In this document: positions 7,455-34,688 of the stretch, one piece after another
How positions within the stretch are numbered: position 1 is the stretch's first letter
Layout of the letters: every line of letters begins with the position of its first letter
Assembly: GCA_018266795.1 (NCBI GenBank)
Contig: JAFDZV010000018.1
Coordinates: forward strand, 1 to 34,726
DNA length: 34,726 nt
Direction: 5' to 3'
Origin: Bacteroidota bacterium
Lineage (GTDB): Bacteria; Bacteroidota; Ignavibacteria; OLB7
Program-made: the position numbers and the translations under genes
Notes under the pieces: generated by a model
The model's database searches: none
The model's input: the letters and a program-made list of their open reading frames with translations, nothing else
Told to the model about the DNA's origin: nothing

Positions 7455-7485
7455 GAACTGGACGGAGGATGGCTCCGTCCAGTTC
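7455..7485. terminator. Bidirectional hairpin between convergent genes
   Basis: GAACTGGACGGA (7455-7466) and its exact complement (7474-7485) form a 12-bp stem with a 7-nt loop. It lies between two convergent genes, and its right arm overlaps the stop codon of the minus-strand HEAT-like gene, so that gene's last bases are part of the terminator. Confidence 0.8.
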
Positions 7486-9220
7486 AATTCCATGCGCCGG
7501 GTGTAAGCGGGATGGTTCCGGAGCCCGGGCGGTTCAGGCTCGCATGCATGGTATGATACTGCGCTGCCGCCTGAGCCGCGCTTCGCACATGCTGGTCGGC
7601 GTCGTTGAGGCCGGCGCGCACAAGATCCTTGCACTCGGCATCCAGCGTCCAGCGCTGAACGTGGGTGAGCGAAGTGAGAGCGGCCTTGCGCATCATCACG
7701 GTATGATGCCGTGCATAGCGTTTGATCGTTTCCAGAACGCCGGGACGATTCAGCTTGCCGATATGATGCAGCGCAACGGCGCGCGCAATCTCCTCGAGAT
7801 CGTGGTGGCCGTCGTTCTCGGGTTCACCCTCCCTCTCCCGGGCAGCCATGCTTCGCGACTCCCCTGCGAGCAGAAGCGCGTACAACTCCTCCAGATGTTC
7901 GTCGCTTCCGAGCATTCCGATCGCGTTCACGTTCACCGGATGCGGCCGGGTGTGGAAGTCAAGCATGATGGCCGGCATCAGCTCGCTCATCTCCATCTCG
8001 ATCGCGATCTGCAGCGCAGCGAAGCGGAAGTGATCGTTGCGGATGGCATCGGCGAGCACCTTGCGCGTGAGCCGTGTCATGAAGACCCGTCCGGCCTGCT
8101 CGAACAATTCCTCGCGGCGCGACCATGTGGGAGGAGCCTTGTCCAGCAGGCCGCCAAGCGTGTGCATGGCCGTTACCAGCTCTATGGATCCCTCCGACGC
8201 CCGGGCCAGCCGGAGGTAGGCCGTAACCAGACTCTCCCCTTCCTCCAGTTGAAGGAGCAGCTGCTCGCTCGCCTCTCCCTCGCCTGCGAGCGCGGAGATG
8301 AGGGCGAAGAGTGCCCGGGCAAGCTCGGGATCGTTCTCCGCATCCTTCAGGCGGGCTCGTACGTCGCAGGCCTGCACCAGCGTCCGCGCAACGTCGCCGG
8401 CGGCGCTGCGGCCGTTTGCAACGCCGTGCACGAACAGCTCGCGGCTGATCGCAGGATCGGCGGCAAGGCCGGGATCGCGTGCAACGGCGTTGAGCACCTG
8501 GAAGAATCCCCAGCCTTCGGTGACAGGAATCAGCCGCAGCAGGTCGCTGGTTGCATGCGGGTACACTGACCTGGCATGCTGCAGCACGATGCAGACATAG
8601 GTAGTGAACTCCGAGTGGCGTGCCAGTTCAGGGATCCACGGTTCCTGGTGCGGATCGAGTCGCAGCCCGGAGATCAGAATTCCCCACTTGACGGCGTTCA
8701 GATCGCTGCTGTGACAGGCCATTGCGGCGAAGAGGTCCACCACGCGGTCCGTGATCTGATTCAACGGCAACGATGCCAGTGCGGTGCGGAAGTGATACGG
8801 AGCGGAGATGTTCCGCACATTCTGCTCCAGCACCCGCCAGTCGTCGATCCATCCCTTGCGAACGGCCAGCACGGCGGCGCAGAGCATGTCGGCGTCGGAC
8901 TGCGCTGCACGCGCCTCCTCGAAGCGAGCCTCGCGCACGCCGGGGAAGTAGTAGGTGCCCGGCTGCGATGTGGAGATCAGCGGGAATCCTTCGTAGCGAA
9001 GCGGCCCCTGCGGATGCTCCCGGATTGCAACGCGAATCCGTTCGAGATAGGAGAGGTCCTCCTGAGCAGCCGCCGTCGGAGTGCGCGCCAGACTCCGGGC
9101 AATACGGAGCAACTCCGCATGCCGTTGAAACTCGACACTGCGGCGGCGCTGCATCACGGACTGGATGATGAACCAGACCGCGATGAGAATGGTGGCGACG
9201 ATTGCAAATTCCTGGTACAT
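7484..9220 (-). CDS. Membrane-anchored HEAT-like repeat protein, paralogue of its neighbour
   Basis: A 578-residue protein. Residues 5-21 form one N-terminal membrane helix followed by basic QRRRS, predicting a cytoplasmic body (N-out). The rest is almost entirely helical with HEAT-like pairs, clearest at the C-terminus (VMMRKAALTSLTHV near 508-521; DADQHVRSAAQAAA at 540-553). A block at about 110-240 aligns with the upstream gene product: LAVRKGWIDDWRVLEQ, NAVKWGILISGL (VKWGI at 177-181), RHSEFTTYV and LLRLIPVTEGWGF. I do not recognise a described family. It is the second gene of a two-gene unit, 37 bp after its paralogue. AGGA lies immediately before the ATG, too close for a normal ribosome binding site. 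Confidence 0.8.
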   Translation of the reverse strand: MYQEFAIVATILIAVWFIIQSVMQRRRSVEFQRHAELLRIARSLARTPTAAAQEDLSYLERIRVAIREHPQGPLRYEGFPLISTSQPGTYYFPGVREARFEEARAAQSDADMLCAAVLAVRKGWIDDWRVLEQNVRNISAPYHFRTALASLPLNQITDRVVDLFAAMACHSSDLNAVKWGILISGLRLDPHQEPWIPELARHSEFTTYVCIVLQHARSVYPHATSDLLRLIPVTEGWGFFQVLNAVARDPGLAADPAISRELFVHGVANGRSAAGDVARTLVQACDVRARLKDAENDPELARALFALISALAGEGEASEQLLLQLEEGESLVTAYLRLARASEGSIELVTAMHTLGGLLDKAPPTWSRREELFEQAGRVFMTRLTRKVLADAIRNDHFRFAALQIAIEMEMSELMPAIMLDFHTRPHPVNVNAIGMLGSDEHLEELYALLLAGESRSMAAREREGEPENDGHHDLEEIARAVALHHIGKLNRPGVLETIKRYARHHTVMMRKAALTSLTHVQRWTLDAECKDLVRAGLNDADQHVRSAAQAAAQYHTMHASLNRPGSGTIPLTPGAWN

Positions 9221-9258
9221 TCCTACAGTACTACGAACGATTTCCGTGTTCAGATCTG

Positions 9259-11151
9259 TTATCTGTTTTCCAAGCCCAGTTCATCCTCCAGCCCCAGCAC
9301 CTGCACGGTCTCATCGGCCGTGATCCAGAGGCTCATCTCGGTTCCCTCCAGCGCATTCCGAAGCAGCTCCCTGCACTCTTCATCGATCAGTTCGAGAGGC
9401 AGGTCGCGCATGGCCATCAACGCGGCCGAGCGAACGAACGGATGGTAGTCCGTGCCGGCGGTCACGATCCAACGCCGCGCCTCCTCGTTTCCCAACGTTC
9501 CGATGTTTGTGATGATCGCGCCATAGATGGTTGTCCTCTCGTATCGCCTGCCGTCGTATCCATCGATCGCGGCTCCCTCCAGCTCCGGCTGCACATCGTC
9601 AGCGGGCTCCGCATCATCGAAGAATCCATCGGGCTCGCTCTCCGGTGCGGTCTCGGCAGCCTCCGCTCGTTTCGCTTCAGCCTCCAGGCCATATGCCGCG
9701 CGGGCCGCGAGTTCATCCGGATCCGGGAGCAGTTCCAAGAGCGTGCCGGCCGTGTCTTCGTCGCCGATCGCCATCAGAGTCGTGATTGCAAGCGTGCTCG
9801 GATCGGCCCTGCAGAGCGCGGCCACCGCCGGGTACAGTTCTCCGAGATGCAGATCGTTGATGATGGAGAGGGCGATAACACGATGCTCCGGATCGGCAAG
9901 CACCTCGCCGAGCAGCTCGGAGGCAATTCGCTCTCCCATCAGATTCACCGCCGTTTCCAACTGGTCCTCCGTCAGGAACTGGGCACCACCGCGTGCACCG
10001 GAGAGGTCCCCGGCGTCGATGGCGGCAATGTCGCTCGTGCCGCCGAGCGCGTAGAGCGCCTCCATCGTCTCGATGGAGGGCGTCATCCCCTGGATCAACG
10101 CCAGCACACTGTCAATCTGTGTCCAGACGCCGGCTGCCCATGCGCTCTGATGGTTGAAGTTGTTCGCGAACGCGCTCGCCACAAGCCAGCGGAGTATGGC
10201 AACGGCCAGTTCGCGATCGTTTTCCGCGAGAGCATCTTCCACCAGTGAACGGGGATCGAACGACGTATCGAGCAGCGTTGCAATTGTGGTCCGTGCAGGC
10301 CCGCCGTTGCGCATCCCCAGAATCACCAGCGATCGCCATCCCGGTGCGTCCACCCGGCCCTCCAGCAGCGACCGCACAAGCTGGGCAATGCCCCAGCCTC
10401 CCGTGATGCGAAGCAGGCTGAACGGGTAGAGGTCGTCACCGGCCGGAGCCTGGCCCGCCTCCATGCCGGCCGCGTCCCCGGGCTCGGAGCCCTCCGCGTC
10501 GTGATTCCCCGCATCCGGCTGATCCTCCTCCGCGACCGCATCGCCATGCCCGCCGCCGCGCGCCTCCATTGCAGCAAACGCGTACGGTGTGAACTCGGCG
10601 TGCCTGATCAGAAGCATCAGCAACTCATCTACCGATGCGTCCTCGTCCAGCGCGCCGAACACGATTCCCCACTTGACACCGTTGTAGCTGGTGGCGTTGC
10701 GGGCCAGCTGCACGAACATGCCGGTAACCTGTGGGGTGAGATCGCCCGTATCCAGTCCGTTCAACGTCCGTTCCAGATGCGACGCGGTATCGACATCGCT
10801 CAACGTCTTTTCCAACTCCTGCCACAACGTGATGCGTCCATCGCGAACGGCAAGCACTGCCTCCGCAACGTCGCGCCACGTTTCGTCATCCGGATCGGAC
10901 TCGCCGCGAAATGCATCACGTGCCCCGGGGTGGAGATGGTATGCCGGATCGTTGGAAACGATCGGCGGGAACGGTGAGTAGTCCAGCAATGCGTCCGGGG
11001 CGTGCTCCACCTGTGTTGCGATCAGGCTTGCAAGCGAAGCCGTGCCGGCCTCGGCGCCTGATCGGCCGGCCGGGTGATAGATGTCCGATGTCGGGACCAT
11101 GTCCGAATGAAAGGTCCGGATCCGAAACAGTTCCGAGGCGATTGGTGCCAT
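9259..11151 (-). CDS. Soluble HEAT-like repeat protein with acidic insertions, paralogue of its neighbour
   Basis: A 630-residue protein with no signal peptide or membrane helix. It shares with the following gene product LAVRDGRITLWQELEK (100-115), NGVKWGIVFGAL (VKWGI at 159-163), RHAEFTPYA (183-191) and LLRITGGWGI (246-255), plus C-terminal HEAT-like pairs (HPFVRSAALMAMRDL, 570-584). Two low-complexity acidic segments (about 200-240 and 495-525) are insertions relative to the paralogue and are probably disordered linkers. The ATG at 11151 is chosen because the longer open frame runs into the divergent outer-membrane gene. Function is unknown; HEAT arrays usually bind other proteins, and the pair may form a soluble/membrane-bound partner set. 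Confidence 0.8.
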   Translation of the reverse strand: MAPIASELFRIRTFHSDMVPTSDIYHPAGRSGAEAGTASLASLIATQVEHAPDALLDYSPFPPIVSNDPAYHLHPGARDAFRGESDPDDETWRDVAEAVLAVRDGRITLWQELEKTLSDVDTASHLERTLNGLDTGDLTPQVTGMFVQLARNATSYNGVKWGIVFGALDEDASVDELLMLLIRHAEFTPYAFAAMEARGGGHGDAVAEEDQPDAGNHDAEGSEPGDAAGMEAGQAPAGDDLYPFSLLRITGGWGIAQLVRSLLEGRVDAPGWRSLVILGMRNGGPARTTIATLLDTSFDPRSLVEDALAENDRELAVAILRWLVASAFANNFNHQSAWAAGVWTQIDSVLALIQGMTPSIETMEALYALGGTSDIAAIDAGDLSGARGGAQFLTEDQLETAVNLMGERIASELLGEVLADPEHRVIALSIINDLHLGELYPAVAALCRADPSTLAITTLMAIGDEDTAGTLLELLPDPDELAARAAYGLEAEAKRAEAAETAPESEPDGFFDDAEPADDVQPELEGAAIDGYDGRRYERTTIYGAIITNIGTLGNEEARRWIVTAGTDYHPFVRSAALMAMRDLPLELIDEECRELLRNALEGTEMSLWITADETVQVLGLEDELGLENR

Positions 11152-11431: not shown

Positions 11432-13939
11432 ATGATTTCAGCATCACGAACCATCAAGGCGCGGGTGTTTCCTGCGCTTGTACTCCTACTGTCGATCGCC
11501 GGAACCGCACTGGCGCAGAATCCGCGCGGCCGCGGCATGGGCCCCGGCGGAGCAAACGCTCCGCAGGGAACCATTGTCGGGTCGGTTCGCGACAGCTCCA
11601 ACGGCGAGGCGCTCTATCGCGCATCGGTTTCCATTCGCCGCTTGAGCGACTCCGTTCTCGTCACCGGCGCGATCACCGAACGAGACGGGAGCTTCAGCAT
11701 CTCGGGGATCCGCCCCGGAAGATATTTCGCACGCATCGCGTTCGTGGGATTCGTGACGCGGTTGATCGGCAACCTGGAGGTAGCCGCCAACGGCACGGTG
11801 GATCTCGGGAAGGTGATGATGGTGACGAACGCCGCGCTGGGCGCGGAGGTGACGGTGAACGCGCAGCGCGACTTCATGACCCAGGCAATCGACCGGACGA
11901 TCTACAAGACGGCGGAGTTGAAGGTTGCCGCCGGGGGATCGATCTCCGATCTGCTGCGGAATATTCCGCAGATCGATGTGGACCCCGACGGCAACGTGAG
12001 CCTGCGCGGCAGCCAGAATGTGGTGATCCAGATCAACGGGCGCCCCACAATGGTAACCGGGACGATGCTGGCCGAATTCCTTCGCGGCCTTCCGGCCGAC
12101 GCGGTGGAGCGTATCGAGGTGATTCCCAACCCATCGGCCAAGTACGATCCCGACGGCATGAGCGGCATTATCAATATCGTGCTGAAGCAGAACAGCGAAC
12201 TGGGGCTGAGCGGCGGTGTGAACGGATCGGTCGGCACGCACGACAACTACAGCATCGGCGGAACGATCAACTACGGATCGGGGCCGTGGAACGTCTTCGC
12301 CAACTACGGCTTCAACTACAACGATCGCGAGAATACCGGCAGCTACTCGCGCGTGGCACTTGTCCCGGATCAGGTGCCTGTGCTGGAACAGGCATCGCAT
12401 GAGGAAAATCGTAATCCGTTCAATCTGCTGAGCACGACGATCGACTACAAGATCAACAAGGAGCATACGATCACGCTCGCAGCTACCGGAAGCATTCGGA
12501 CCCAGAACGAGACACAGTTCACCAATTACGACGAGCGCGACACGAATCGCGTTCTTACGCGCCGCTACGATCGTTCGGCCGCAATCACTGGTGACGGCAC
12601 GAACGCCGATGTACGGCTGAGCCACAAGTGGGTGATCGATCCGGCCCGGCAGGAGCTTTCCAGCGAGGTCCGCTTCTCCAGCGACCGGAGAGTGGAGAAC
12701 AGCGCATTTACGAACCGGAATCTCACGCTGGATGGTGGAAGTACTGCCGACGCACCGGGGCTGCAGAACACGGTTGGCACTACGCGCAATCGCTCGCTCG
12801 CGTTCCAGACCGACTACACGATGCCGCTTGGCGCGGCCACGAGGATGGAGGCAGGGTACAAGGGCGATCTCGAGATGATGAACGATGACTTCTCCTCGGA
12901 GTCGTTCGACTACACGGGCAATCTCTTTCAGCCCGACGTTGGCCTGAACAATACATTCGATTATCGCCGGACGATTCACGCCGTCTACAGTACGCTGGGA
13001 CAGGACTTCGGGCATATCAGCGCGCAGGCCGGGCTTCGTGCGGAGCAGGCTTACACGACGTTCGATATGACAACCACCGGGCAGACGTATCACAACGACT
13101 ACTTCAGCCTCTTCCCGAGTGCATTCCTGATGTACAAGCCCAACGATGATCTCCAGTTCAAGGCAAGCGTCAGCCGGCGTATCAACCGGCCGTCGCCGCG
13201 TGCTCTGAACCCGTTCACGAACGTCGAGGATCTGCACTTCCGGCGCACGGGGAACCCCTATCTGAAGCCGGAGTACACCAGCGCGTACGAGTTTGCGACG
13301 ACGCTGTTTGCAGACAGGACATCGGTGACGCTTACGGCATTCTATCGCCATACCACCGACGTGATGCGCCAGTACGGCTACACCGATACCACCGGCGTGA
13401 CGTATCTGACCTGGGCGAACTTCGCCACCAACAGCACGTACGGCGGCGATCTTACCGCAACTGTGCGTCTAGGCGACTGGTTCAATGGATTCGTGTTCGC
13501 GAGCGCCTATCAGAACGTGACCGACGCCAGCAACGTGGACACCACATTCAGCACGAACGGGCTGCAGTGGATGCTCCGGGCGAACGGCAACGTCACGATC
13601 GTGCCCGGGCTCGACCTGCAGGCCACGTATTTCCTGCATCCGGCGGCGAACGTGGAGGGGGCGCACATCGGGACGATGCAGGGTATGGATGTGGCGTTGC
13701 AGCAGAAGCTCTTCAACGACAAGGGGCGTATCGGCCTGAGGCTGAGCGATCCGTTCAATACGCAGAAGTTCACGATATCGCGCATCGATCCAACCGCGCA
13801 CACGGAGGTTGAGCGGAAGTGGACGTCGCGCATTCTGGCCCTGACGTTCAGTTATACGTTCGGCACGCCGGACCGGAACCAGCGTCAGCGCCAGCAGCAG
13901 CCGGGCAACAACAACCCCAACATGATGGACATGGAGTAG
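11432..13939 (+). CDS. Outer-membrane beta-barrel family protein (TonB-dependent receptor-like)
   Basis: An 835-residue outer-membrane protein. The signal peptide spans residues 1-29 (ends TALAQ). A carboxypeptidase-regulatory-like beta domain covers about 46-125 (GTIVGSVRDSSNGEALYRA; RDGSFSISGIRPGRYFARI). A plug domain at about 150-252 contains LLRNIPQIDVDPDGNVSLRG and IEVIPNPSAKYDPDGMSG. A 22-strand-type barrel of the outer-membrane beta-barrel family fills most of the rest. The last 25 residues are Gln/Asn/Pro-rich (RQRQQQPGNNNP). No TonB box is recognisable. Such proteins are common in Bacteroidota, with substrates that cannot be read from sequence; no SusD partner is adjacent. There is no clear Shine-Dalgarno sequence. 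The 3' end forms part of a tandem duplication. Confidence 0.88.
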   Translation: MISASRTIKARVFPALVLLLSIAGTALAQNPRGRGMGPGGANAPQGTIVGSVRDSSNGEALYRASVSIRRLSDSVLVTGAITERDGSFSISGIRPGRYFARIAFVGFVTRLIGNLEVAANGTVDLGKVMMVTNAALGAEVTVNAQRDFMTQAIDRTIYKTAELKVAAGGSISDLLRNIPQIDVDPDGNVSLRGSQNVVIQINGRPTMVTGTMLAEFLRGLPADAVERIEVIPNPSAKYDPDGMSGIINIVLKQNSELGLSGGVNGSVGTHDNYSIGGTINYGSGPWNVFANYGFNYNDRENTGSYSRVALVPDQVPVLEQASHEENRNPFNLLSTTIDYKINKEHTITLAATGSIRTQNETQFTNYDERDTNRVLTRRYDRSAAITGDGTNADVRLSHKWVIDPARQELSSEVRFSSDRRVENSAFTNRNLTLDGGSTADAPGLQNTVGTTRNRSLAFQTDYTMPLGAATRMEAGYKGDLEMMNDDFSSESFDYTGNLFQPDVGLNNTFDYRRTIHAVYSTLGQDFGHISAQAGLRAEQAYTTFDMTTTGQTYHNDYFSLFPSAFLMYKPNDDLQFKASVSRRINRPSPRALNPFTNVEDLHFRRTGNPYLKPEYTSAYEFATTLFADRTSVTLTAFYRHTTDVMRQYGYTDTTGVTYLTWANFATNSTYGGDLTATVRLGDWFNGFVFASAYQNVTDASNVDTTFSTNGLQWMLRANGNVTIVPGLDLQATYFLHPAANVEGAHIGTMQGMDVALQQKLFNDKGRIGLRLSDPFNTQKFTISRIDPTAHTEVERKWTSRILALTFSYTFGTPDRNQRQRQQQPGNNNPNMMDME

Positions 13940-14171
13940 GCGCAGGTCTTCAGCCTGCGCCGAGAAATATGAACGATGAAACAGGAGACATGACCCGGCG
14001 GGTTTGACGGTGCAGGCATGAGACGACAACGCGAACGGCCGGTTCCGCACATGATGGGCATGGCGCAGGTCATCAGCCTGCGCCGGGAAATATGAACGAT
14101 GAAACAGGAGACATGACCCGGCGGGTTTGGCGGTGCGGGCATGAGACGACAACGCGAACGGCCGGTTCCGC
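13939..14171 (+). repeat. Tandem duplication, two 110-bp units with 123-bp period
   Basis: Units 13939-14048 and 14062-14171 are nearly identical. Each begins with a hairpin GGCGCAGG-N7-CCTGCGCC, continues through AACAGGAGACATGACCCGGC, and ends AACGGCCGGTTCCGC. The match extends leftwards, with a 6-bp difference, into the last codons of the outer-membrane gene (ACATGATGG at 13920 and 14049). Only the second unit has the complementary arm that completes the terminator, so the duplication copied half of that hairpin. Short open frames through it are not credible genes. Confidence 0.9.
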
Positions 14172-14214: not shown

Positions 14215-15201
14215 CTACTTCACCGGCCGGCCGAAGACAATGATGGAGAAGGGGCGCAGCACGGAGTTGCCCTGCAGGTTCACGATCTTCACCACGACCA
14301 CATTCTCATCGTATACGCCCGTAGCCTGGTTGCGTCGGAATGTCCAGGTCGGAACGGCGGGCGTTGTATCCACGGTCTGGCCGCCGATCGTAATCGACGG
14401 AGCGATCTCGGGGAACTGCGCGGAGCCACCCTGCACGGGGCGTGCGGAGTTGTCCAGCGTGATCTCGTACGTGCCGTTGACGATCGCAACGGAGGTGATG
14501 CCGAAGTCGGCGGCAATGTTTCCGTCGATACCGATCTGCCCCCACGCGATCGCGGCGTTGTCGCGGTAGAGTGCTCCGGCAACGGGTGCAGTGGAGTTGC
14601 CCGCGGTGTCGCCAACGATCACGTGTCCGGATGTGCTGTCGTTCCCGTTGCTGACGACGGCGAACGGCGTTCCCTTCACGGTCAGCCCGATCTGCGTCTT
14701 CCCGCCGTTGATAACCGCCGGCGTTGCAAGCGCGTGTGCCGTATCGGCATAGGTGGCCGATGTGGCTGTGACGGCGCTCGCTGCCGTTGCTGCGCTGTCG
14801 GCTTCATGCGCGCGCGCGGCGGAGTCCGCTCCGGCAGCATGGAGGGAGTAGGGGGAGGAGCGGAGGATGAAGCGCGGCGAGAGTTCGGCCCTGCCATCGA
14901 TTGCGACCCCCATCCAGAGCTGGCGATCGAACGAAATGGTAGCAGGAATCCCTCCGGTGGTGCCGCCGCCGATCGCCACGGTGAAGATGCCGTCCGTGAA
15001 ATTGGCGTCCTGCGTTTCATCGAAGATCGCCGTGCCGCCGGATGCCTGCGTGTAGAGCCGGAGGCGCATGGAATGGCTTCCCTGAAGGAGCCCGGATGCA
15101 TCCTTGATCCGCCCCTGATAGTTGATCGTGCGCGGCACCTGCGCCAGGGCGGTCGCGGCGGCGAGCGTCGCGAGGGCAAGTACGGTTGAAATCGTCTTCA
15201 T
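14215..15201 (-). CDS. Secreted protein with N-terminal beta domain and Ala/Ser/Thr linker
   Basis: A 328-residue exported protein. The signal peptide covers residues 1-21 (ends ATALAQ). Residues 22-122 form a beta domain, PRTINYQGRIKDASGLLQG through FDRQLWMGVAIDGRAELSPR and LRSSPYSLHA, seen at the start of many secreted or fibre-like proteins in FCB bacteria. Residues 123-160 are an Ala-rich linker (AADSAARAHEADSAATAAS type). The C-terminal 170 residues are beta-rich with no family I recognise; no intramolecular chaperone (peptidase S74) tail and no T9SS tail is seen. The ATG at 15201 is supported by GAGGA 6 nt upstream. A palindromic element lies 47 bp before the start. Confidence 0.78.
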   Translation of the reverse strand: MKTISTVLALATLAAATALAQVPRTINYQGRIKDASGLLQGSHSMRLRLYTQASGGTAIFDETQDANFTDGIFTVAIGGGTTGGIPATISFDRQLWMGVAIDGRAELSPRFILRSSPYSLHAAGADSAARAHEADSAATAASAVTATSATYADTAHALATPAVINGGKTQIGLTVKGTPFAVVSNGNDSTSGHVIVGDTAGNSTAPVAGALYRDNAAIAWGQIGIDGNIAADFGITSVAIVNGTYEITLDNSARPVQGGSAQFPEIAPSITIGGQTVDTTPAVPTWTFRRNQATGVYDENVVVVKIVNLQGNSVLRPFSIIVFGRPVK

Positions 15202-15247
15202 GGTCGTTCCTCGATCTATGCGTTTTGATTCGTTCGTATCCATGTTC

Positions 15248-15316
15248 ACAGTTCCTGTCAACACCTGGGTGGGCTCGAGAGCCTGCAGGCCCTCGAGCGC
15301 CGAATGTCGGGAACTC
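15248..15316 (+). repeat. Dispersed palindromic element, copy 2 (full length)
   Basis: This 69-bp element has AGTTCC/GGAACT ends and an internal hairpin: GCTCGAG, GCC, loop TGCA, GGC, CTCGAGC, with one A/C mismatch. It matches copy 3 (31282-31350, opposite strand) almost throughout. Relative to the downstream gene, copies 2 and 3 have the same orientation. It sits 47 bp upstream of the start at 15201. Confidence 0.9.
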
Positions 15317-15366
15317 TCGATTGCGCCGGGCACAGCCGCCGCACCGGAGGCTGTGCCTCCTCGCCA

Positions 15367-15939
15367 TTACTTCATATAGCGTATCAACCGTGCGGACTGA
15401 TCCTGGCCGTTGATCGCCAGCGTGACCATGTAGCATCCCGGCGCCACATTCTCCGGTTTCCACGAGACGCGATGATTGCCGGCCTCCACGCGAGCATCCA
15501 GCAGCGTACCCACGAATGCGCCGGTGATGTCGTAGACGGCCAGGCGCACGTGGCCGGTCACGGCAACGGTCACGCTGATATCCACCATCGTGGTGAAGGG
15601 TTCCGGTGCGGTGCCGGTGATGCCGGCGACCGCATCGGGCGGCATCGGCGTATCATCCTTCACACCTCCCACCGGGCCGATCGGCGTGGTCTGCCAGAAG
15701 CCGGTCCAGAGAGCACTGTTGTCAACACCTGCCGTACTGTCGCTCGCCATCGGTTCGCCGATGGTCGAATACATGGTGCCGCCACCATCGTAGCTTCGTA
15801 CATCCCCTCCGTTGGAAGTGATGGCCGTATCGATGGCCGTCTGCGCCATGGCCGTCCCGGCCGATGCCAGCATCAGGAGCAGGCCGCCCAGCGAAAGCCG
15901 CATCCCGTTCCGTCCGTGTTTGTTGTCGTTGTTCTTCAT
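15367..15939 (-). CDS. Small secreted protein with type IX secretion C-terminal sorting domain
   Basis: A 190-residue protein. The signal peptide runs to about residue 33 (LLMLASAGTAMAQ). The N-terminal mature part has the GGGTMYSTIGEP...WTGFWQT motif of short secreted proteins from this group. Residues 112-190 form a T9SS type A sorting domain: MVDISVTVAVTGHVRLAVYD, GAFVGTLLDARVEAGNHRVSW, GCYMVTLAINGQ and a basic end LIRYMK. It is therefore predicted to cross the outer membrane by the T9SS (por/gld system) and to be processed or attached at the surface. It contains almost nothing else, so it may be structural or a decoy-sized cargo. The ATG at 15939 has GGAG about 10 nt upstream. Confidence 0.85.
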   Translation of the reverse strand: MKNNDNKHGRNGMRLSLGGLLLMLASAGTAMAQTAIDTAITSNGGDVRSYDGGGTMYSTIGEPMASDSTAGVDNSALWTGFWQTTPIGPVGGVKDDTPMPPDAVAGITGTAPEPFTTMVDISVTVAVTGHVRLAVYDITGAFVGTLLDARVEAGNHRVSWKPENVAPGCYMVTLAINGQDQSARLIRYMK

Positions 15940-16099: not shown

Positions 16100-16214
16100 C
16101 GGCTTATTGCCGAAACTATTCGGGTGGCCGTGGATGCGTTAACCACCCGGCGTTTATTCCAGCGGCGCCACAACCGGCGTCCTGCTCGGCTCTCTTCTTG
16201 CCGGCCCGGAGTCT

Positions 16215-16237
16215 GTGCCGGAGTACAACTCCGGCAC
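16215..16237. repeat. Short palindrome GTGCCGGAGT/ACTCCGGCAC
   Basis: Perfect 10-bp arms surround a 3-nt loop. The flanking CACAACGGAA and the arm sequence recur at 16880-16902. It belongs to the dispersed family of GGAGT-centred palindromes in this window. Confidence 0.8.
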
Positions 16238-16256
16238 AACGGAACGCGTGCCGAAG

Positions 16257-16830: not shown

Positions 16831-16879
16831 GTTTGCATCGAGCCCTGCTTCCCGGCGCCGGCGTTCCGGCTTGGGGTAT

Positions 16880-16902
16880 GTGCCGGATCACAACTCCGGC
16901 AC
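16880..16902. repeat. Short palindrome GTGCCGGA/TCCGGCAC
   Basis: Arms of 8 bp surround a 7-nt loop. The sequence from TGTGCCGGA to CTCCGGCACAACGGAA is shared with 16215-16237, so this is another copy of that repeat. Confidence 0.8.
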
Positions 16903-16937
16903 AACGGAAGATCCAAGCACCAAGCCCAAGAACGCTC

Positions 16938-16972: not shown

Positions 16973-19900
16973 TCACATCTCACCCGCGCGAACGCGTGTC
17001 ATGAGCTCACTGATGCGCCGGGCCGGGCCGGCGCCGTAGGCGTCGAGCGCCGCCTCGTAGCGATTGAAATAGCTGAACGCCTCGCGCCGTGCGCCGCGGG
17101 CGGCGGCGGAGCGGATCAATGCCTCGTAGGCGCCGTCGTGCAGATCGTCCAGCGCAAGCAGCCGCTCGGCAAGCGGCGGAACGGCGGCGAAGCCGTCGCG
17201 ATCCATCTCCAGCGCTATCAACCGTTCCAGCGCCGTAGCCAGTTCGCCGCGCAGACTCTCGCGCACGGTGTCCACCCACTCCGCATACATTCCCTCCAGA
17301 AAATCGCCGGTGGCCAGATCCAGCGCCGCTCGGTACGCAACGGCTGCCCCGAAGTAGACCCCCTCGCCGTGCAGCCGGTTCCCCTTCTTCACGTTCTCGC
17401 GGAACTCCACCGCGTCGATCGCCACATCGTCGCCGAGTGCGTAGACGCCGTCGCGCTGCTGTACCGTGCTGCTGCTGCCGAGGAACCTGCGGGCATAGGA
17501 GAGCGTTGCGTGCAGATTGTTCACGGCCTTCTCCGAAGGCATGTCCGGCCAGAGCAGGTCCGCAAGGCGGTCGCGGGTCAGTTCGCCGAGCGATCGCGTA
17601 TCGCCAAGGCGCGCCACCACCAGTGCGGCCACCAGCGTGCGTGTCTTCGATTCCAGCTTTGCGCCCACATCGTCCGTCCCCTCGATCCGCAATGCGCCGA
17701 AGGCCCGTAGAATCTGGCGTTGCGGCTGTGCCTCGGGTATAGTTGGAGCGGCCTCACCGGGTTCGCCATCGGCGGCATACGGAGGCTTACCGAGCGACTG
17801 CCGGAACCGCGAGAGACGCGTCTTCGGAAGCAGCTCAGCGAGCAGGTCGAGCTGCCGATGTGCCATGCCGGTTGTCGATTCCTGAATCGCCTTCTCGATC
17901 GACATCTCTACAATGGAGTAGGCCGCATCGTTGAACTCCCGCTTCCGGCCGTTACTTCTCTCCGCACCTTCCAGCAGCATTCGCGCAATTCGGAATCCGT
18001 CAGAGCCTTCTATATCCGTGGGAGATAAAGATTCGGAATAGACTCGCAACACCTCCGGCTCATCCTCGAATGTCGATGCCGCCAAAGTATTGATCAACTG
18101 GAGACGCCGAGCTTGCGGCGAATTTGCATCACTGAACGTACTTCCGAACTCCGACGATATTTCTCCGATACGGCTCAGGAGTTGGTCAACGCGTTCCCGG
18201 TTGCGTGCATCGATGTATGAGCAGAGTTCCTCGCTGGCAAACACGAGCCGATGATGAACTGACAACGACTGCATATTTGCGTTGATGTCTTGAGCAAATC
18301 GTATCGAACGTTGCGGATCACCGAGCCAATTCCACGCTCTTTGAAATACATATCGTGCGAGCGTCGTTTGTAGCGCCGATGAGCGGGCGGGTGGAGGGAC
18401 GGCGTGGAATTCTCGATCGAGAATTCCGAGTTCCTCGATACTCCCTTCGGAAGCTGCCACAAGTGGAAGATGAAAGTAGTTGGAACTGAGGTTTCGATAC
18501 GCAGGATAGCGATCGATCAGTGTTCGCAGTTCCGTGGCATGTTGACGGACATCTTCTACGCGACCAACATTCTGCGCATAGTTCGCCGCATGCAGCAGCA
18601 ACTCGTATTCGGTGAAGAGGTCCGCCTCGCGACGCAGGCGCAGCCCGGTCTCCACCATTTCGCCCGCCTCGGCAACACGCCCAGCCTGCATCATTGCCGG
18701 CAGCAGCACCTTGAACAGAGCGTTCAGCGTCTCGGGGCGCATGCGGTCCATCTCGCCGATGTAGGGCGCGGCCAGGTCCAGACCTTCCGCAAAGTCGCCG
18801 CGGCTGAAGGAGTAAGAGGCCACCAGCCGGATTGCCTCCGCGGCGCCGCGCAGTTCGCGATCGCTCTGCTCGGCAGGGGGCGGAAGCACCTTCAGCAGCT
18901 CATCGAGAAAGCCCTTGGCCCGTTCCGGGTTTCCCTGCGTGAGCGCATCCTTCCAGACCACCACCGCGGCATCGAGCCGTGTCATGCGGTCCTCGGCGCC
19001 GGAAGGCGGCACGTTGCCGATGCGATCCAGGATGGATGCGATCTCGTTCGCGATATCGCGCAGCGCCTCACGTGCGCCGGTGATGTAGAGCCGGTCGCCG
19101 TAGACAGCCAGCGCGTCCAGATACTCTCCGGGCAATGCGCCGTCCTGTGCCGATTCGATAGTGCGAAACGGTTCCAGTGTTGCGTGGCAGAGCGCAACGA
19201 ATGCTTCCGCGTAGATCGGCGAAAGTCTGCGCCCTACGGTCACCAGCCAGGCGAAGAGACGCGGCCGGTCCGCGGCAGGAATCGCCATGGCGTCCAGCGC
19301 CTCCAGCGGCGCAACCGTGTAGAGCTCGCCGGTGCCGCGCGTCAGGATGTCCAGTGTGATCCCTGCCAGCTCCGTGCGCGTTGCGCCGTGCGGCTCCAGT
19401 GCGGTGGCTGCCTTCCAGAGGAGTGTGTGCGTGAACGCAAAGCAGACACGCCCCTCCGTCTCGCGTGCGCCCAGACGCACGGACGGTGTGGAGACGGAGA
19501 CGAAGCCGCCAAGGATCAGGCGCTCGAACGCATGATCGTCCCAGCACCCCGTTCGTTCTGCCAGAGCCCGCAGAAGGTCGCGGTTGAACTGTTCGCCGAG
19601 ATATGCGGCCAGCGCAAGGATATGCTGCTCCGTATCGGGAAGCGATGCAAGCCGGCCGGAGAATCCGTGTACACGATCGCCGATGGCGCGCAGATCGTCA
19701 TCCGGGAGTGAGGCGGAGCGCCATTCCCATGTGCCGTCGGGTGCGGCAATCAGGTGCTCGGTGGCGAGCAGCTCGCGGAATACTTCGCGCAGCGCAAGTG
19801 GAAGCCCGCCGGAAAGGGCCGCGATCTGGCCGAGCATCTCCTCCGGCGGCTGTACGCCGAACAGGCTGGTCACCGCCTCGGCAAGGCCTGCGCCATCCAG

Positions 19901-20545
19901 CGGGCCGATCTCCAGTTCCTGCGGCGGGATGGAGCCGGCGAGAGCGGAACGGAAGGAGCGGAGCGCCGCGTTCTCCACCGGACGCGTCGTGGCTACCAGC
20001 AGCAGCGGAATTTCCTCGATCGCCGCCACGAAGCGGGATAGCTCGGAGGATGAACTGAGGTAGTGAAGGTCATCCAGAATGAGCACAACGGGATAGCGTC
20101 GCGATGCGATCTGTACCGCTTCCACGGCCGCGTCCACGGTTGCAACCGCGCCGTCGCGGTAGATGCGGGCTGCGAGCGGGGCTGCGAGTGCCGGGCGCAG
20201 AACCTCCAGAGCATTGCTGAGCGGGCCCAGTTCTATTCCCTCACCCTCGTACCACTTCGCATGCACCACCAGCGAACGCGACGTTCCCTCGCGCGCGCGG
20301 GACTTCAGTTCATCCAGCAGGCGGCTCTTGCCAACGCCGGCCGGGCCATGCATCCATATCGCACGCGGCTCCCCCTCCAGCAGGCCCGCGAACGCCTCGA
20401 GCACGAGCCCAAGCTCGCGCTCCCGCCCAACGAGCGGCATGATCCCGCGGTTGATGAAATCCCTGATCCTCGGCGACATCGATTCGCTTTGTCCTGTGTC
20501 CTGGCCAACTAGATGTGCGTTGACTGTAATGCGGTAATCTACCAT
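16973..20545 (-). CDS. AAA ATPase - TPR - SARP/BTAD transcriptional regulator
   Basis: A 1190-residue cytoplasmic protein. An AAA_16-type ATPase begins near residue 36 (MPLVGRERELG), with Walker A GPAGVGKS at 67-74 and Walker B VVLILDDLHYL at 153-163. A long helical, TPR-like region follows to about 930. The C-terminus carries a SARP-type winged-helix DNA-binding domain (about 945-1040: ILRAFGALRI, DLLWPDMPSEKAVNNLHATL) and a bacterial transcriptional activator domain (about 1048-1190). In AfsR-type proteins the DNA-binding module is N-terminal; here it is last, a MalT-like order. It is probably a signal-integrating activator with unknown ligand. The start at 20545 has GAGAGGAA; an ATG at 20479 is possible. 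About 17,880-18,580 is much AT-richer than the rest of the gene. Confidence 0.85.
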   Translation of the reverse strand: MVDYRITVNAHLVGQDTGQSESMSPRIRDFINRGIMPLVGRERELGLVLEAFAGLLEGEPRAIWMHGPAGVGKSRLLDELKSRAREGTSRSLVVHAKWYEGEGIELGPLSNALEVLRPALAAPLAARIYRDGAVATVDAAVEAVQIASRRYPVVLILDDLHYLSSSSELSRFVAAIEEIPLLLVATTRPVENAALRSFRSALAGSIPPQELEIGPLDGAGLAEAVTSLFGVQPPEEMLGQIAALSGGLPLALREVFRELLATEHLIAAPDGTWEWRSASLPDDDLRAIGDRVHGFSGRLASLPDTEQHILALAAYLGEQFNRDLLRALAERTGCWDDHAFERLILGGFVSVSTPSVRLGARETEGRVCFAFTHTLLWKAATALEPHGATRTELAGITLDILTRGTGELYTVAPLEALDAMAIPAADRPRLFAWLVTVGRRLSPIYAEAFVALCHATLEPFRTIESAQDGALPGEYLDALAVYGDRLYITGAREALRDIANEIASILDRIGNVPPSGAEDRMTRLDAAVVVWKDALTQGNPERAKGFLDELLKVLPPPAEQSDRELRGAAEAIRLVASYSFSRGDFAEGLDLAAPYIGEMDRMRPETLNALFKVLLPAMMQAGRVAEAGEMVETGLRLRREADLFTEYELLLHAANYAQNVGRVEDVRQHATELRTLIDRYPAYRNLSSNYFHLPLVAASEGSIEELGILDREFHAVPPPARSSALQTTLARYVFQRAWNWLGDPQRSIRFAQDINANMQSLSVHHRLVFASEELCSYIDARNRERVDQLLSRIGEISSEFGSTFSDANSPQARRLQLINTLAASTFEDEPEVLRVYSESLSPTDIEGSDGFRIARMLLEGAERSNGRKREFNDAAYSIVEMSIEKAIQESTTGMAHRQLDLLAELLPKTRLSRFRQSLGKPPYAADGEPGEAAPTIPEAQPQRQILRAFGALRIEGTDDVGAKLESKTRTLVAALVVARLGDTRSLGELTRDRLADLLWPDMPSEKAVNNLHATLSYARRFLGSSSTVQQRDGVYALGDDVAIDAVEFRENVKKGNRLHGEGVYFGAAVAYRAALDLATGDFLEGMYAEWVDTVRESLRGELATALERLIALEMDRDGFAAVPPLAERLLALDDLHDGAYEALIRSAAARGARREAFSYFNRYEAALDAYGAGPARRISELMTRVRAGEM
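18406..18427. repeat. 22-bp perfect palindrome inside the regulator gene
   Basis: Arms GGAATTCTCGA and TCGAGAATTCC are exact complements with no spacer. It encodes GILDREF in the helical middle of the AAA/SARP protein. It lies within the AT-richer part of that gene. Confidence 0.8.
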
Positions 20546-31109: not shown

Positions 31110-31195
31110 AGCAGCTCGCGCGCGGCGGATCGTTTCATCGCGGTTACGCACCGAAACGCTGCGCCCCCCGAATCTTTTGTACGTTCACTCCTCTT

Positions 31196-31227
31196 GCCGA
31201 CAGGTTCCCCGAAACGGGCCTGTCGGC
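31196..31227 (+). terminator. Hairpin with T-rich tail
   Basis: GCCGACAGG (31196-31204) and CCTGTCGGC (31219-31227) form a 9-bp stem. An inner CCCG/CGGG stem closes an AAA loop. TTCTCGTGTTTTG follows. It probably ends the lipoprotein transcript; it could alternatively attenuate mfd if a promoter lies just upstream. Confidence 0.75.
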
Positions 31228-31281
31228 TTCTCGTGTTTTGCGGCATGCAGGCACCGTGCCTCTGCCGCAGGATTCTCCTTG

Positions 31282-31350
31282 GAGTTCCTGACATTCAGCG
31301 CTCGAGGGCCTGCCGGCTCTCGAGCGCATCCCGGTTCTGATAGGAACTGT
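31282..31350 (-). repeat. Dispersed palindromic element, copy 3 (full length)
   Basis: Read on the minus strand it is ACAGTTCCTATC...GGAACTC, matching copy 2 closely, including the central CTCGAGAGCC/GGCCCTCGAG hairpin. It ends 18 bp before the mfd start codon, inside the region where a ribosome binding site and leader are expected. Confidence 0.9.
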
Positions 31351-31367
31351 CATTCCCGAGACTACGC

Positions 31368-34300
31368 ATGCGACGCATACTGGACCGCATCAGCACGAGC
31401 CCGTTGTTATCGAAGGTTCTGGAATCGCTCCGTGCGAATCCCGAAACCCATATCACCGGGCTCGCCGGCTCGCTTCGTTCGGTGATCCCCGCGCTGATTC
31501 ATCAGCGTACCGGCGAACCGGTGCTGATGGTGTTCGAGGATCGCGTGGATGCGGGCTCGGCCTATGCCGACCTGGTGACGCTTATCGGCAGCGACCATGT
31601 TCTGCTCTATCAGGAGGAGCATCATACCTCTGCAACGCTGCGCGACACGCTGGACGCAGAGGTGATATCGCTGACCGATGCGCTGAAGGGAATCGCGGAC
31701 AACGGCGATCGCGTGGTGGTGACCGATGTCGAATCGCTTGCCGAGCATGTGCCTGCGCAGTCCGTGATTACCGGCAGCCTGATCGAACTGCGGGTGGGTG
31801 AGCGCGCCTCGTTCGAGGATCTGGTGCGCCGCGTTGCGCTTGGCGGCTTCGAGCGCGCGGACATCGTGCAGTCCATGGGCGAGTATGCGGTGCGCGGCGG
31901 CATTCTGGATATCTATCCAATCGGCTCCGATCACCCGGTGCGGCTGGAGTTCTTCGGCGACGAGATCGATTCCATTCGCGAGTTCGACCCGCTCTCGCAG
32001 CGTTCGGTGCGCGATCGCGACGCGGTAAGCCTGATGGCGCGCCTCTTCCACTCGGAGCAGGCCGAGGAGTTCTCCACGACCATTCTCGATCACATTCGTG
32101 CGAACACCGTGATCATGCTGGATGAGCCCGAGCGCATCCAGGGGTTGCTGGAACAGGCAGGGCACGAACAACTGGTTGCGGCGATGGCGGAGTTCCGTCG
32201 TCTGATGCATTCCTCGCTCTACGCATCGGGTGATGATGCCATCGACGCCGGCGGCCGCGCGCAGCCATCCTACTCCTCCTCCATCAAGGAGCTCTGCAAG
32301 GGGCTCGCCGGCTTTCGCGCCGACGGCGTTGCCGCATACCTGCTCGCCGACGGCGACGATGCGCGGCGCCGGCTGGAGGATCTGATCGACGGCGAATGCG
32401 ATCGCGCCGCGGAGGCGGACGAGCCGTACGGCTTCCAGGCCTCCGATCTTCTCTACGTGAATGAGTCGCTCTCCAACGGCTTCGTGATCCCGTGGATGAA
32501 GATCGCGGTGCTCACGGAGCACGAGGTATTCAGCCGGCGGCGTTCGCGCGTTCGCGCACGCCAGAAGCAGTTCAAGGGGTTCACGCTGCGCGAACTGCGC
32601 CAGCTGCGTCCGGGCGACTTCGTGGTGCATGTGGAGAAGGGGATCGGCCGCTTCATCGGGCTGGAGACGATCAGCGCCGCGGGATCGCGCGGCGAGGCGG
32701 TGAAGCTGGAGTATGCGGGCGGCGACACGCTGTTCGTGAATCTGAACTATATCAATCGCCTGCAGAAGTATTCATCGAAGGAAGGGGCGCATCCCAGGCT
32801 CAGCCGGCTGGGAACGGAGGAGTGGGAGCGGGCGAAGGCGCGTGCCAAGCGCCGCGTGAAGGATATCGCGCGCGAGCTGATCAGGCTGTACGCGCAACGG
32901 AAGTCGCAGCCGGGTTTCGCGTTCCCGACGGACTCGCAGTGGCAGCGGGAACTGGAGGCCTCCTTCATGTACGAGGATACGCCGGACCAGGCGTCCGCCA
33001 CCTATGCGGTGAAGCAGGATATGGAGTCGTCCACGCCGATGGACCGGCTGGTGTGCGGCGACGTGGGGTTCGGCAAGACGGAGGTTGCCGTGCGCGCCGC
33101 GTTCAAGGCGGTGCAGGGAGGGAAGCAGGTTGCCGTGCTCGCTCCCACCACGATCCTTGCACAGCAGCACTACAACACATTCCGCGACCGCCTTGCCCGC
33201 TACGCCGTCTCCGTGGATCTTCTTTCCCGCTTCCGCACCAAGGCGGAGCAGAAGGAGACGCTGGAGCGGTTGAAGACCGGGCGCGTGGATGTGCTGATCG
33301 GAACGCACAGGATTCTCTCCAAGGATGTTCGCTTCAGGGATCTGGGCCTTCTCATCATCGACGAGGAGCAGCGCTTCGGTGTGTCGGCGAAGGAGAAGCT
33401 GCGGCAGGTGCGCGCCACTGTGGATACGCTCACGCTCACCGCCACGCCGATTCCGCGCACGCTCAACTTCTCGCTCATGGGCGCGCGCGACCTGAGTACC
33501 ATCGAGACGCCACCTCGCAATCGCCTGCCGATCGTCACGGAACTGTTGCAGTGGAACGAGGACGCGATTGCCGATGCCATTCGCCGCGAGCTGGGGCGCG
33601 GCGGGCAGTGTTTCGTTGTACACTGGAGAATCGGTGATATCGAGGATCTCGCCGCGAAGATCGGAACGCTTGTGCCGGATGCGCGCGTTGCGGTTGTGCA
33701 TGGTGAGATGACCGCGGAGCAGATCGAGAGGACGATGATGCAGTTCATCGACCGCCGTTTCGACGTGCTCGTGGCAACGAAGATCATCGAGTCCGGCATC
33801 GACATCCCGGCGGTGAACACCATCATCGTGAACCGGGCGGACAAGTTCGGTCTCGCGGAGTTGTACCAGCTTCGCGGGCGCGTTGGGCGCTCCAATATCC
33901 AGGCCTACTGCTACATGGTGATCCCGCCGCCGACGGGGCTCTCGCGCATTGCGTTGAAGCGGCTGCAGGCGATTCAGGAGTTGACGGACCTCGGGAGCGG
34001 GCTCAAGCTTGCGATGCGCGATCTGGAGATACGCGGCGCGGGAAATCTGCTGGGTGCGGAACAGAGCGGTTTCATCGACGAGGTAGGGTTCGAGCTGTAT
34101 CAGAAGATCGTGGACGAGGCGGTGGAGGAATTGAAGCGGGAGGAGTTCAGCGAACTGTTCGCAAGCGAGCTGGAACGGGAGGCCGCATCCGCGGCGTTGC
34201 CGGTGAACGAGGACGTGGTTGTGGAGATCGCCGGCGACGCGCTGATTCCGAAGGGCTATATCGCGGACGATGCGGAGCGCTACGACTTCTATATGCGGAT

Positions 34301-34688
34301 GTACACCGCACCCGATGTGGGGGGGCTGGAGGCCGTCTTCTCCGAAATGCGCGACCGGTTCGGCCTGGTGCCGGAGCCGACGGAGAATCTGTTCAACGCC
34401 GTGAGGCTTCGTCTGGCGGCGATGCAGACCGGCGCATCACGCGCCGCGCTGCGTGAAGAGATGCTTCGTCTGGAGCTGCCGTCCGATACCGAGCGGTCCT
34501 ACTACGAGCGATGGTTCCAGCCGATCATGGAGGCGATCAGCAGTGAGCGGGGGGCGCAGTTGGAGACGAAGGGGCGCCAGCTTGCGATTCTCTATCGCGG
34601 CGTAAACGATATCGATGAGGCGGAACGCGTGCTTGCCCGTCTCGTTGCAAAGATGCGCGAGGCGAAGATCCGGGAGAGTGGCCAGTAG
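31368..34688 (+). CDS. mfd: Transcription-repair coupling factor Mfd
   Basis: An 1106-residue DNA translocase that releases stalled RNA polymerase and recruits UvrA to damage. In order: a UvrB-homology region (about 40-330, GEYAVRGGILDIYPIGSDHPVRLEFFGDEID); a CarD-like RNA polymerase interaction domain (from about 415, LRPGDFVVHVEKGIGRFIGLE); a RecG-type helicase with Walker A GDVGFGKT at 564-571 and Walker B DEEQ at 665-668; motif TATPIPRTL; motif VI LYQLRGRVGRS; and a C-terminal TRCF domain (about 960-1060). It is close to the length of E. coli Mfd (1148). The ATG at 31368 lies 18 bp after a palindromic element, with only a weak ribosome binding site. It is probably monocistronic. Confidence 0.96.
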   Translation: MRRILDRISTSPLLSKVLESLRANPETHITGLAGSLRSVIPALIHQRTGEPVLMVFEDRVDAGSAYADLVTLIGSDHVLLYQEEHHTSATLRDTLDAEVISLTDALKGIADNGDRVVVTDVESLAEHVPAQSVITGSLIELRVGERASFEDLVRRVALGGFERADIVQSMGEYAVRGGILDIYPIGSDHPVRLEFFGDEIDSIREFDPLSQRSVRDRDAVSLMARLFHSEQAEEFSTTILDHIRANTVIMLDEPERIQGLLEQAGHEQLVAAMAEFRRLMHSSLYASGDDAIDAGGRAQPSYSSSIKELCKGLAGFRADGVAAYLLADGDDARRRLEDLIDGECDRAAEADEPYGFQASDLLYVNESLSNGFVIPWMKIAVLTEHEVFSRRRSRVRARQKQFKGFTLRELRQLRPGDFVVHVEKGIGRFIGLETISAAGSRGEAVKLEYAGGDTLFVNLNYINRLQKYSSKEGAHPRLSRLGTEEWERAKARAKRRVKDIARELIRLYAQRKSQPGFAFPTDSQWQRELEASFMYEDTPDQASATYAVKQDMESSTPMDRLVCGDVGFGKTEVAVRAAFKAVQGGKQVAVLAPTTILAQQHYNTFRDRLARYAVSVDLLSRFRTKAEQKETLERLKTGRVDVLIGTHRILSKDVRFRDLGLLIIDEEQRFGVSAKEKLRQVRATVDTLTLTATPIPRTLNFSLMGARDLSTIETPPRNRLPIVTELLQWNEDAIADAIRRELGRGGQCFVVHWRIGDIEDLAAKIGTLVPDARVAVVHGEMTAEQIERTMMQFIDRRFDVLVATKIIESGIDIPAVNTIIVNRADKFGLAELYQLRGRVGRSNIQAYCYMVIPPPTGLSRIALKRLQAIQELTDLGSGLKLAMRDLEIRGAGNLLGAEQSGFIDEVGFELYQKIVDEAVEELKREEFSELFASELEREAASAALPVNEDVVVEIAGDALIPKGYIADDAERYDFYMRMYTAPDVGGLEAVFSEMRDRFGLVPEPTENLFNAVRLRLAAMQTGASRAALREEMLRLELPSDTERSYYERWFQPIMEAISSERGAQLETKGRQLAILYRGVNDIDEAERVLARLVAKMREAKIRESGQ

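Follow-up and report, generated by a model that had tools for sequence, protein, structure and literature searches.

HEAT-like proteins of an ignavibacterial gene pair

Two neighbouring genes in a Bacteroidota bacterium of the class Ignavibacteria encode HEAT-like proteins, one membrane-anchored (A) and one soluble (B). Within the window, which is the whole analysed stretch of 34,726 nucleotides, they raise a simple question: do the two proteins make up a membrane-bound and soluble scaffold system of undescribed function, as the first-pass annotation suggested, or is one a divergent copy of the other? The reading favoured here, with a probability of roughly 0.65, is that the two genes stand in tandem and code for strongly diverged members of a solenoid family, A being an anchored protein-binding scaffold and B a soluble copy.

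Layout of the locus

The features that enter the argument are the following.

7455..7485: perfect 13-nt inverted repeat, overlapping the end of the A stop codon
7484..9220, minus strand: gene for protein A, 578 aa, intact frame
9221..9258: gap between B and A, 38 bp, without an inverted repeat
9259..11151, minus strand: gene for protein B, 630 aa, intact frame; the upstream member of the pair
11432..13939, plus strand: gene for a TonB-dependent-receptor-like outer-membrane beta-barrel, divergent neighbour of the pair

Both genes do lie on one strand, as first annotated, but they are separated by 38 bp rather than 37 bp, a spacing that would fit co-transcription of B and then A. The inverted repeat at the end of A is a possible terminator between convergent genes; it fails the T-run rule, and a terminator search found none at this site.

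Several repeated elements were observed elsewhere in the window. A 110-nt direct repeat (13939-14048 and 14062-14171; 96% identical, spaced 123 nt) lies directly downstream of the TonB-receptor-like gene and is non-coding as far as seen. A 44-nt direct repeat (16201-16244 and 16866-16909; 86% identical), which contains the palindrome-like TGTGCCGGA...TCCGGCACA, flanks a small gene and may represent an intergenic repeat or a stem-loop element. Overlapping frames at about 15304-15400 and 31177-31400, upstream of the genes at 14215-15333 (minus strand) and 31368-34688 (plus strand, Mfd-like), encode a near-identical peptide (ARGPAGSRAHPG.DRNC), which looks like the repetition of a short stretch of DNA. 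The product of the gene at 16973-20545 (minus strand) is 1190 aa long and combines an AAA ATPase domain with a BTAD domain (SARP-like transcriptional activator) at its C-terminus.

Two paralogues beyond the named families

A and B are true paralogues over their full length. BLASTP aligns them at 24% identity over 586 columns (E 7e-31), which bears out their annotation as adjacent paralogues, and the residues invariant among A, B and the homologue in a sister genome are distributed along the entire alignment. In the motif block proposed to be common to both, VKWGI (A 177-181, B 159-163) and RHxEFTxY (RHSEFTTY at A 201-208, RHAEFTPY at B 183-190) fall where they had been placed; LLRI..GWG is exact in B but fits A loosely (LLRLIPVTEGWG), the GWG itself standing at A 236-238 and B 252-254. 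C-terminal HEAT-like helices are supported by Pfam HEAT_2 (PF13646), which B matches above the cut-off of 27.7 bits (30.9 bits, E 3.3e-7) and A, taken alone, slightly below it (24.2 bits, E 4.1e-5). BLAST and profile searches find exactly two copies in the window genome. Weak profile matches to a supposed third paralogue (G000:C4 and G001:C36) proved to be a glycosyltransferase-like gene with only a short EGWG match, and were rejected.

The C-terminal helical hairpins (A ~380-567) resemble those of HEAT_2 proteins such as the phycobilin lyases, NblB and artificial alphaRep, whereas the N-terminal 380 residues of A and B fall outside all Pfam and NCBIfam models. More broadly, the N-terminal ~400 residues of either protein lie outside every model of Pfam, NCBIfam, PHROGs and PADLOC, and no PADLOC anti-phage defence model matches A, B or the sister homologue. 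The NCBIfam equivalogs CpcE/CpeY and NblB score 11.8, 14.5 and 21.1 bits, with the sister homologue only, against cut-offs of 330, 600 and 300.

An anchored solenoid and a soluble copy

The Kyte-Doolittle profile of A peaks at 2.42 at residue 5, in agreement with the single N-terminal membrane helix annotated for it. Hydropathy and the AlphaFold2 model together give a membrane helix at about residues 5-23, then RRR, and an all-helical HEAT/ARM-like solenoid at about residues 100-560. The model, built from a three-sequence input, is all helix with a mean pLDDT of 80.7 and supports, as a fold class only, a HEAT/ARM-like alpha-solenoid of stacked antiparallel helix pairs. In a search of PDB structures, alphaRep HEAT-like proteins match A 380-567 (Z 14.9, rmsd 3.8 Å over 162 residues), and beta-catenin and importin beta match a longer part of the chain at an rmsd of about 12-20 Å. 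Foldseek whole-chain TM-scores are low, at about 0.2-0.33, so that only the fold class and no specific relative is supported; Foldseek absences were left out as evidence. PP2A PR65, beta-catenin and importin beta accordingly resemble A in alpha-solenoid class only, with low TM-scores, an rmsd of about 11-20 Å and no sequence relationship, and are comparable solely in how they may work.

Positive residues flanking a membrane helix mark its cytoplasmic side, the positive-inside rule. As RRR follows the helix of A and NRYGRTRR directly follows that of the sister homologue, the solenoid is predicted to be cytoplasmic, and A is most likely a cytoplasm-facing HEAT scaffold tethered to the inner membrane.

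Protein B, with a Kyte-Doolittle maximum that never exceeds 1.21, has no membrane helix. Its linkers at about 199-250 and 489-536 contain 23% and 33% D+E, and they largely overlap the stretches modelled with pLDDT below 50 (199-253 and 503-536); its description as a soluble protein with two acidic linkers is thus upheld by hydropathy, composition and low pLDDT alike. The AlphaFold2 model of the whole chain is poor (mean pLDDT 64.4). B is most likely a diverged soluble duplicate.

A single anchored copy in the sister genome

From the genus, just one further genome was sampled (G001, 95% complete); it carries one copy, on a 493-kb contig. This homologue has 35% identity with A and 27% with B, and an N-terminal membrane helix anchors it as in A; BLAST and profile searches of the same genome find no counterpart of B. 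The best counterpart of the TonB-receptor-like gene, at 47% identity, lies near the A homologue, with a family-44 glycoside hydrolase gene between the two, which makes the locus syntenic and B the difference. The receptor-like gene is the only neighbour clearly common to the two loci. Because the tree does not settle whether A groups with the sister homologue to the exclusion of B (AU p 0.549), it fixes neither the time of the duplication nor its direction, whether loss of B in the sister or gain here. Conservation of the pair with the same topology in related genomes had been proposed as a check; the one other genome of the genus has an A-like copy alone, the arrangement of one copy and no paralogue that the first-pass annotation had itself set against its proposal.

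Further out, the pair is absent from the other three genomes of the family, including the regions of G002 that hold relatives of the neighbouring receptor, and no member of A/B beyond the sister was found in these three genomes, 60 relatives, 391 genomes of the class or 395 of the phylum. Matches in the sampled family, class and phylum genomes are to generic HEAT proteins only, aligned to the C-terminal repeats. Those in G002, G041, G280 and G390, namely an M1-peptidase-like protein with C-terminal repeats, a PAS-HEAT protein and generic HEAT proteins, were rejected as covering the C-terminal repeats only. Two genomes of the class (L018 and L029) each have generic HEAT-repeat proteins right next to a CheR-type methyltransferase-like gene, one of these proteins being fused to a PAS-like domain. 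A scan of the whole collection with A alone found no relative, and one with the A/B/sister profile found the sister record only; such scans need exact short motifs and cannot show absence. Direct searches of viral contigs and phages with A, the A/B profile and a Rhizobium member of the family described below found no relatives.

Remote membership of a wider family

Some unnamed bacterial HEAT-like proteins have the motif order VKxGI, RHxEFTLYA and GWGRIH. A 158-residue motif probe of this type served as bait only, and all membership tests used real retrieved sequences. The probe led to genuine genes on replicons of Rhizobium, Nonomuraea, Streptomyces and Embleya; A's own block gives a weak tblastn match (E 2) on the same Rhizobium gene. 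When five real proteins from the retrieved genes are aligned and compared by hhalign with the A/B/sister profile, the match is colinear over nearly the full length (E 1.9e-14, 459 columns), and residues 45-330, which are without the HEAT_2 match, score E 1.7e-11. In the reverse search the outside-family profile finds A at 1.7e-9, B at 6.2e-7 and the sister homologue at 6.7e-7 (hmmsearch, search space 1000 sequences). Residues V177, K178, E204, T206, Y208, G236, W237, G238 and N269 (A numbering) do not vary among the six sequences compared, which represent three phyla. Profile comparison in both directions makes it well supported that A and B are remote members of a broader unnamed soluble HEAT-like family represented in Rhizobium, Nonomuraea, Streptomyces and Embleya. 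The annotation that the proteins match no family therefore holds for named families past the generic HEAT repeat but not for this unnamed one, and their undescribed function stands only insofar as the whole family is unnamed and uncharacterised. No papers on the family were found in the open library searched.

The outside members include a plasmid protein of Rhizobium sp. CB3171 (L032:3554-5158), a protein of Nonomuraea gerenzanensis (L033) and the 'hypothetical protein' WP_329453561.1 of Streptomyces sp. NBC_01724 (L034). They are soluble proteins of about 500-570 aa and have neither a membrane anchor like that of A (the tested relatives lack an N-terminal membrane helix) nor acidic linkers like those of B, and are not in tandem: stretches of about 8 kb around the Rhizobium, Nonomuraea and two Streptomyces genes hold no second copy. 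No theme was found among the genes neighbouring the outside members. Solubility is taken here as a trait of the few outside members seen and not as a condition of the family, in which B is soluble and A and the sister homologue are anchored.

Alternative explanations

With pairwise identities between A/B and the outside members of only 17-19%, and nothing at E 0.01 when plasmids are searched with A by ordinary tblastn, the similarity to Rhizobium and Actinomycetota proteins could be no more than a generic HEAT repeat, leaving A/B a genus-restricted orphan family. This is largely refuted, and very improbable, given the strong common block outside HEAT_2, where E falls no lower than 0.088 for three generic HEAT proteins and 0.31 for five column shuffles, and given the colinear order VK - E(F/L)T.Y - GWG - N in A/B and the outside members. 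Within the family, B might instead be a redundant duplicate, decaying or fast-evolving, with no role of its own. It has the longest branch in the tree (1.47 against 0.78 and 0.76), carries low-complexity inserts and is missing in the sister; yet its 630-codon frame is intact, its codon-position GC resembles that of A, and it retains the VKW, RHxEFTxY and GWG residues, which leaves redundancy unlikely, if the strongest of the alternatives.

A two-component system, with B drawn to the membrane by A in an obligate complex, would make sense of two adjacent genes on one strand, 38 bp apart, whose products have complementary topologies. The sister genome, however, keeps A alone, and the relatives in Rhizobium and Actinomycetota are single soluble genes. 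The idea of a conserved membrane and soluble pair is thus disfavoured by the single sister copy, with the caveat that this is just one other genome of the genus, and we consider an obligate complex doubtful. A longer shot still is a genus-specific anchored branch in which the anchored protein draws in the soluble duplicate, a partner with switch-like acidic linkers, to organise an inner-membrane process.

A proposed scaffold and its soluble copy

HEAT/ARM solenoids usually bind proteins on their concave face, and helical repeat proteins may also carry enzymes or bind nucleic acid. On the favoured reading, that of an anchored scaffold and a diverged soluble copy, the solenoid carries an N-terminal signal anchor in this genus, as in A and the sister homologue, which would place it at the cytoplasmic face of the inner membrane. 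The second copy in the window genome, B, differs in having no anchor and in its acidic, disordered linkers. The solenoid would bind proteins as a scaffold, with no enzymatic role: a partner would be kept at the membrane by A, and in the cytoplasm B may bind that partner, a related one, or A itself.

The A/B pair alone reveals no new system. It is tied to a family that spans three phyla and has no model in Pfam, NCBIfam, PHROGs or PADLOC, and whose conserved block, VKW..RHxEFTxY..GWG, would make a good basis for a new family of the Pfam type. To judge by the anchored version, one or more branches of this family may work at the membrane.
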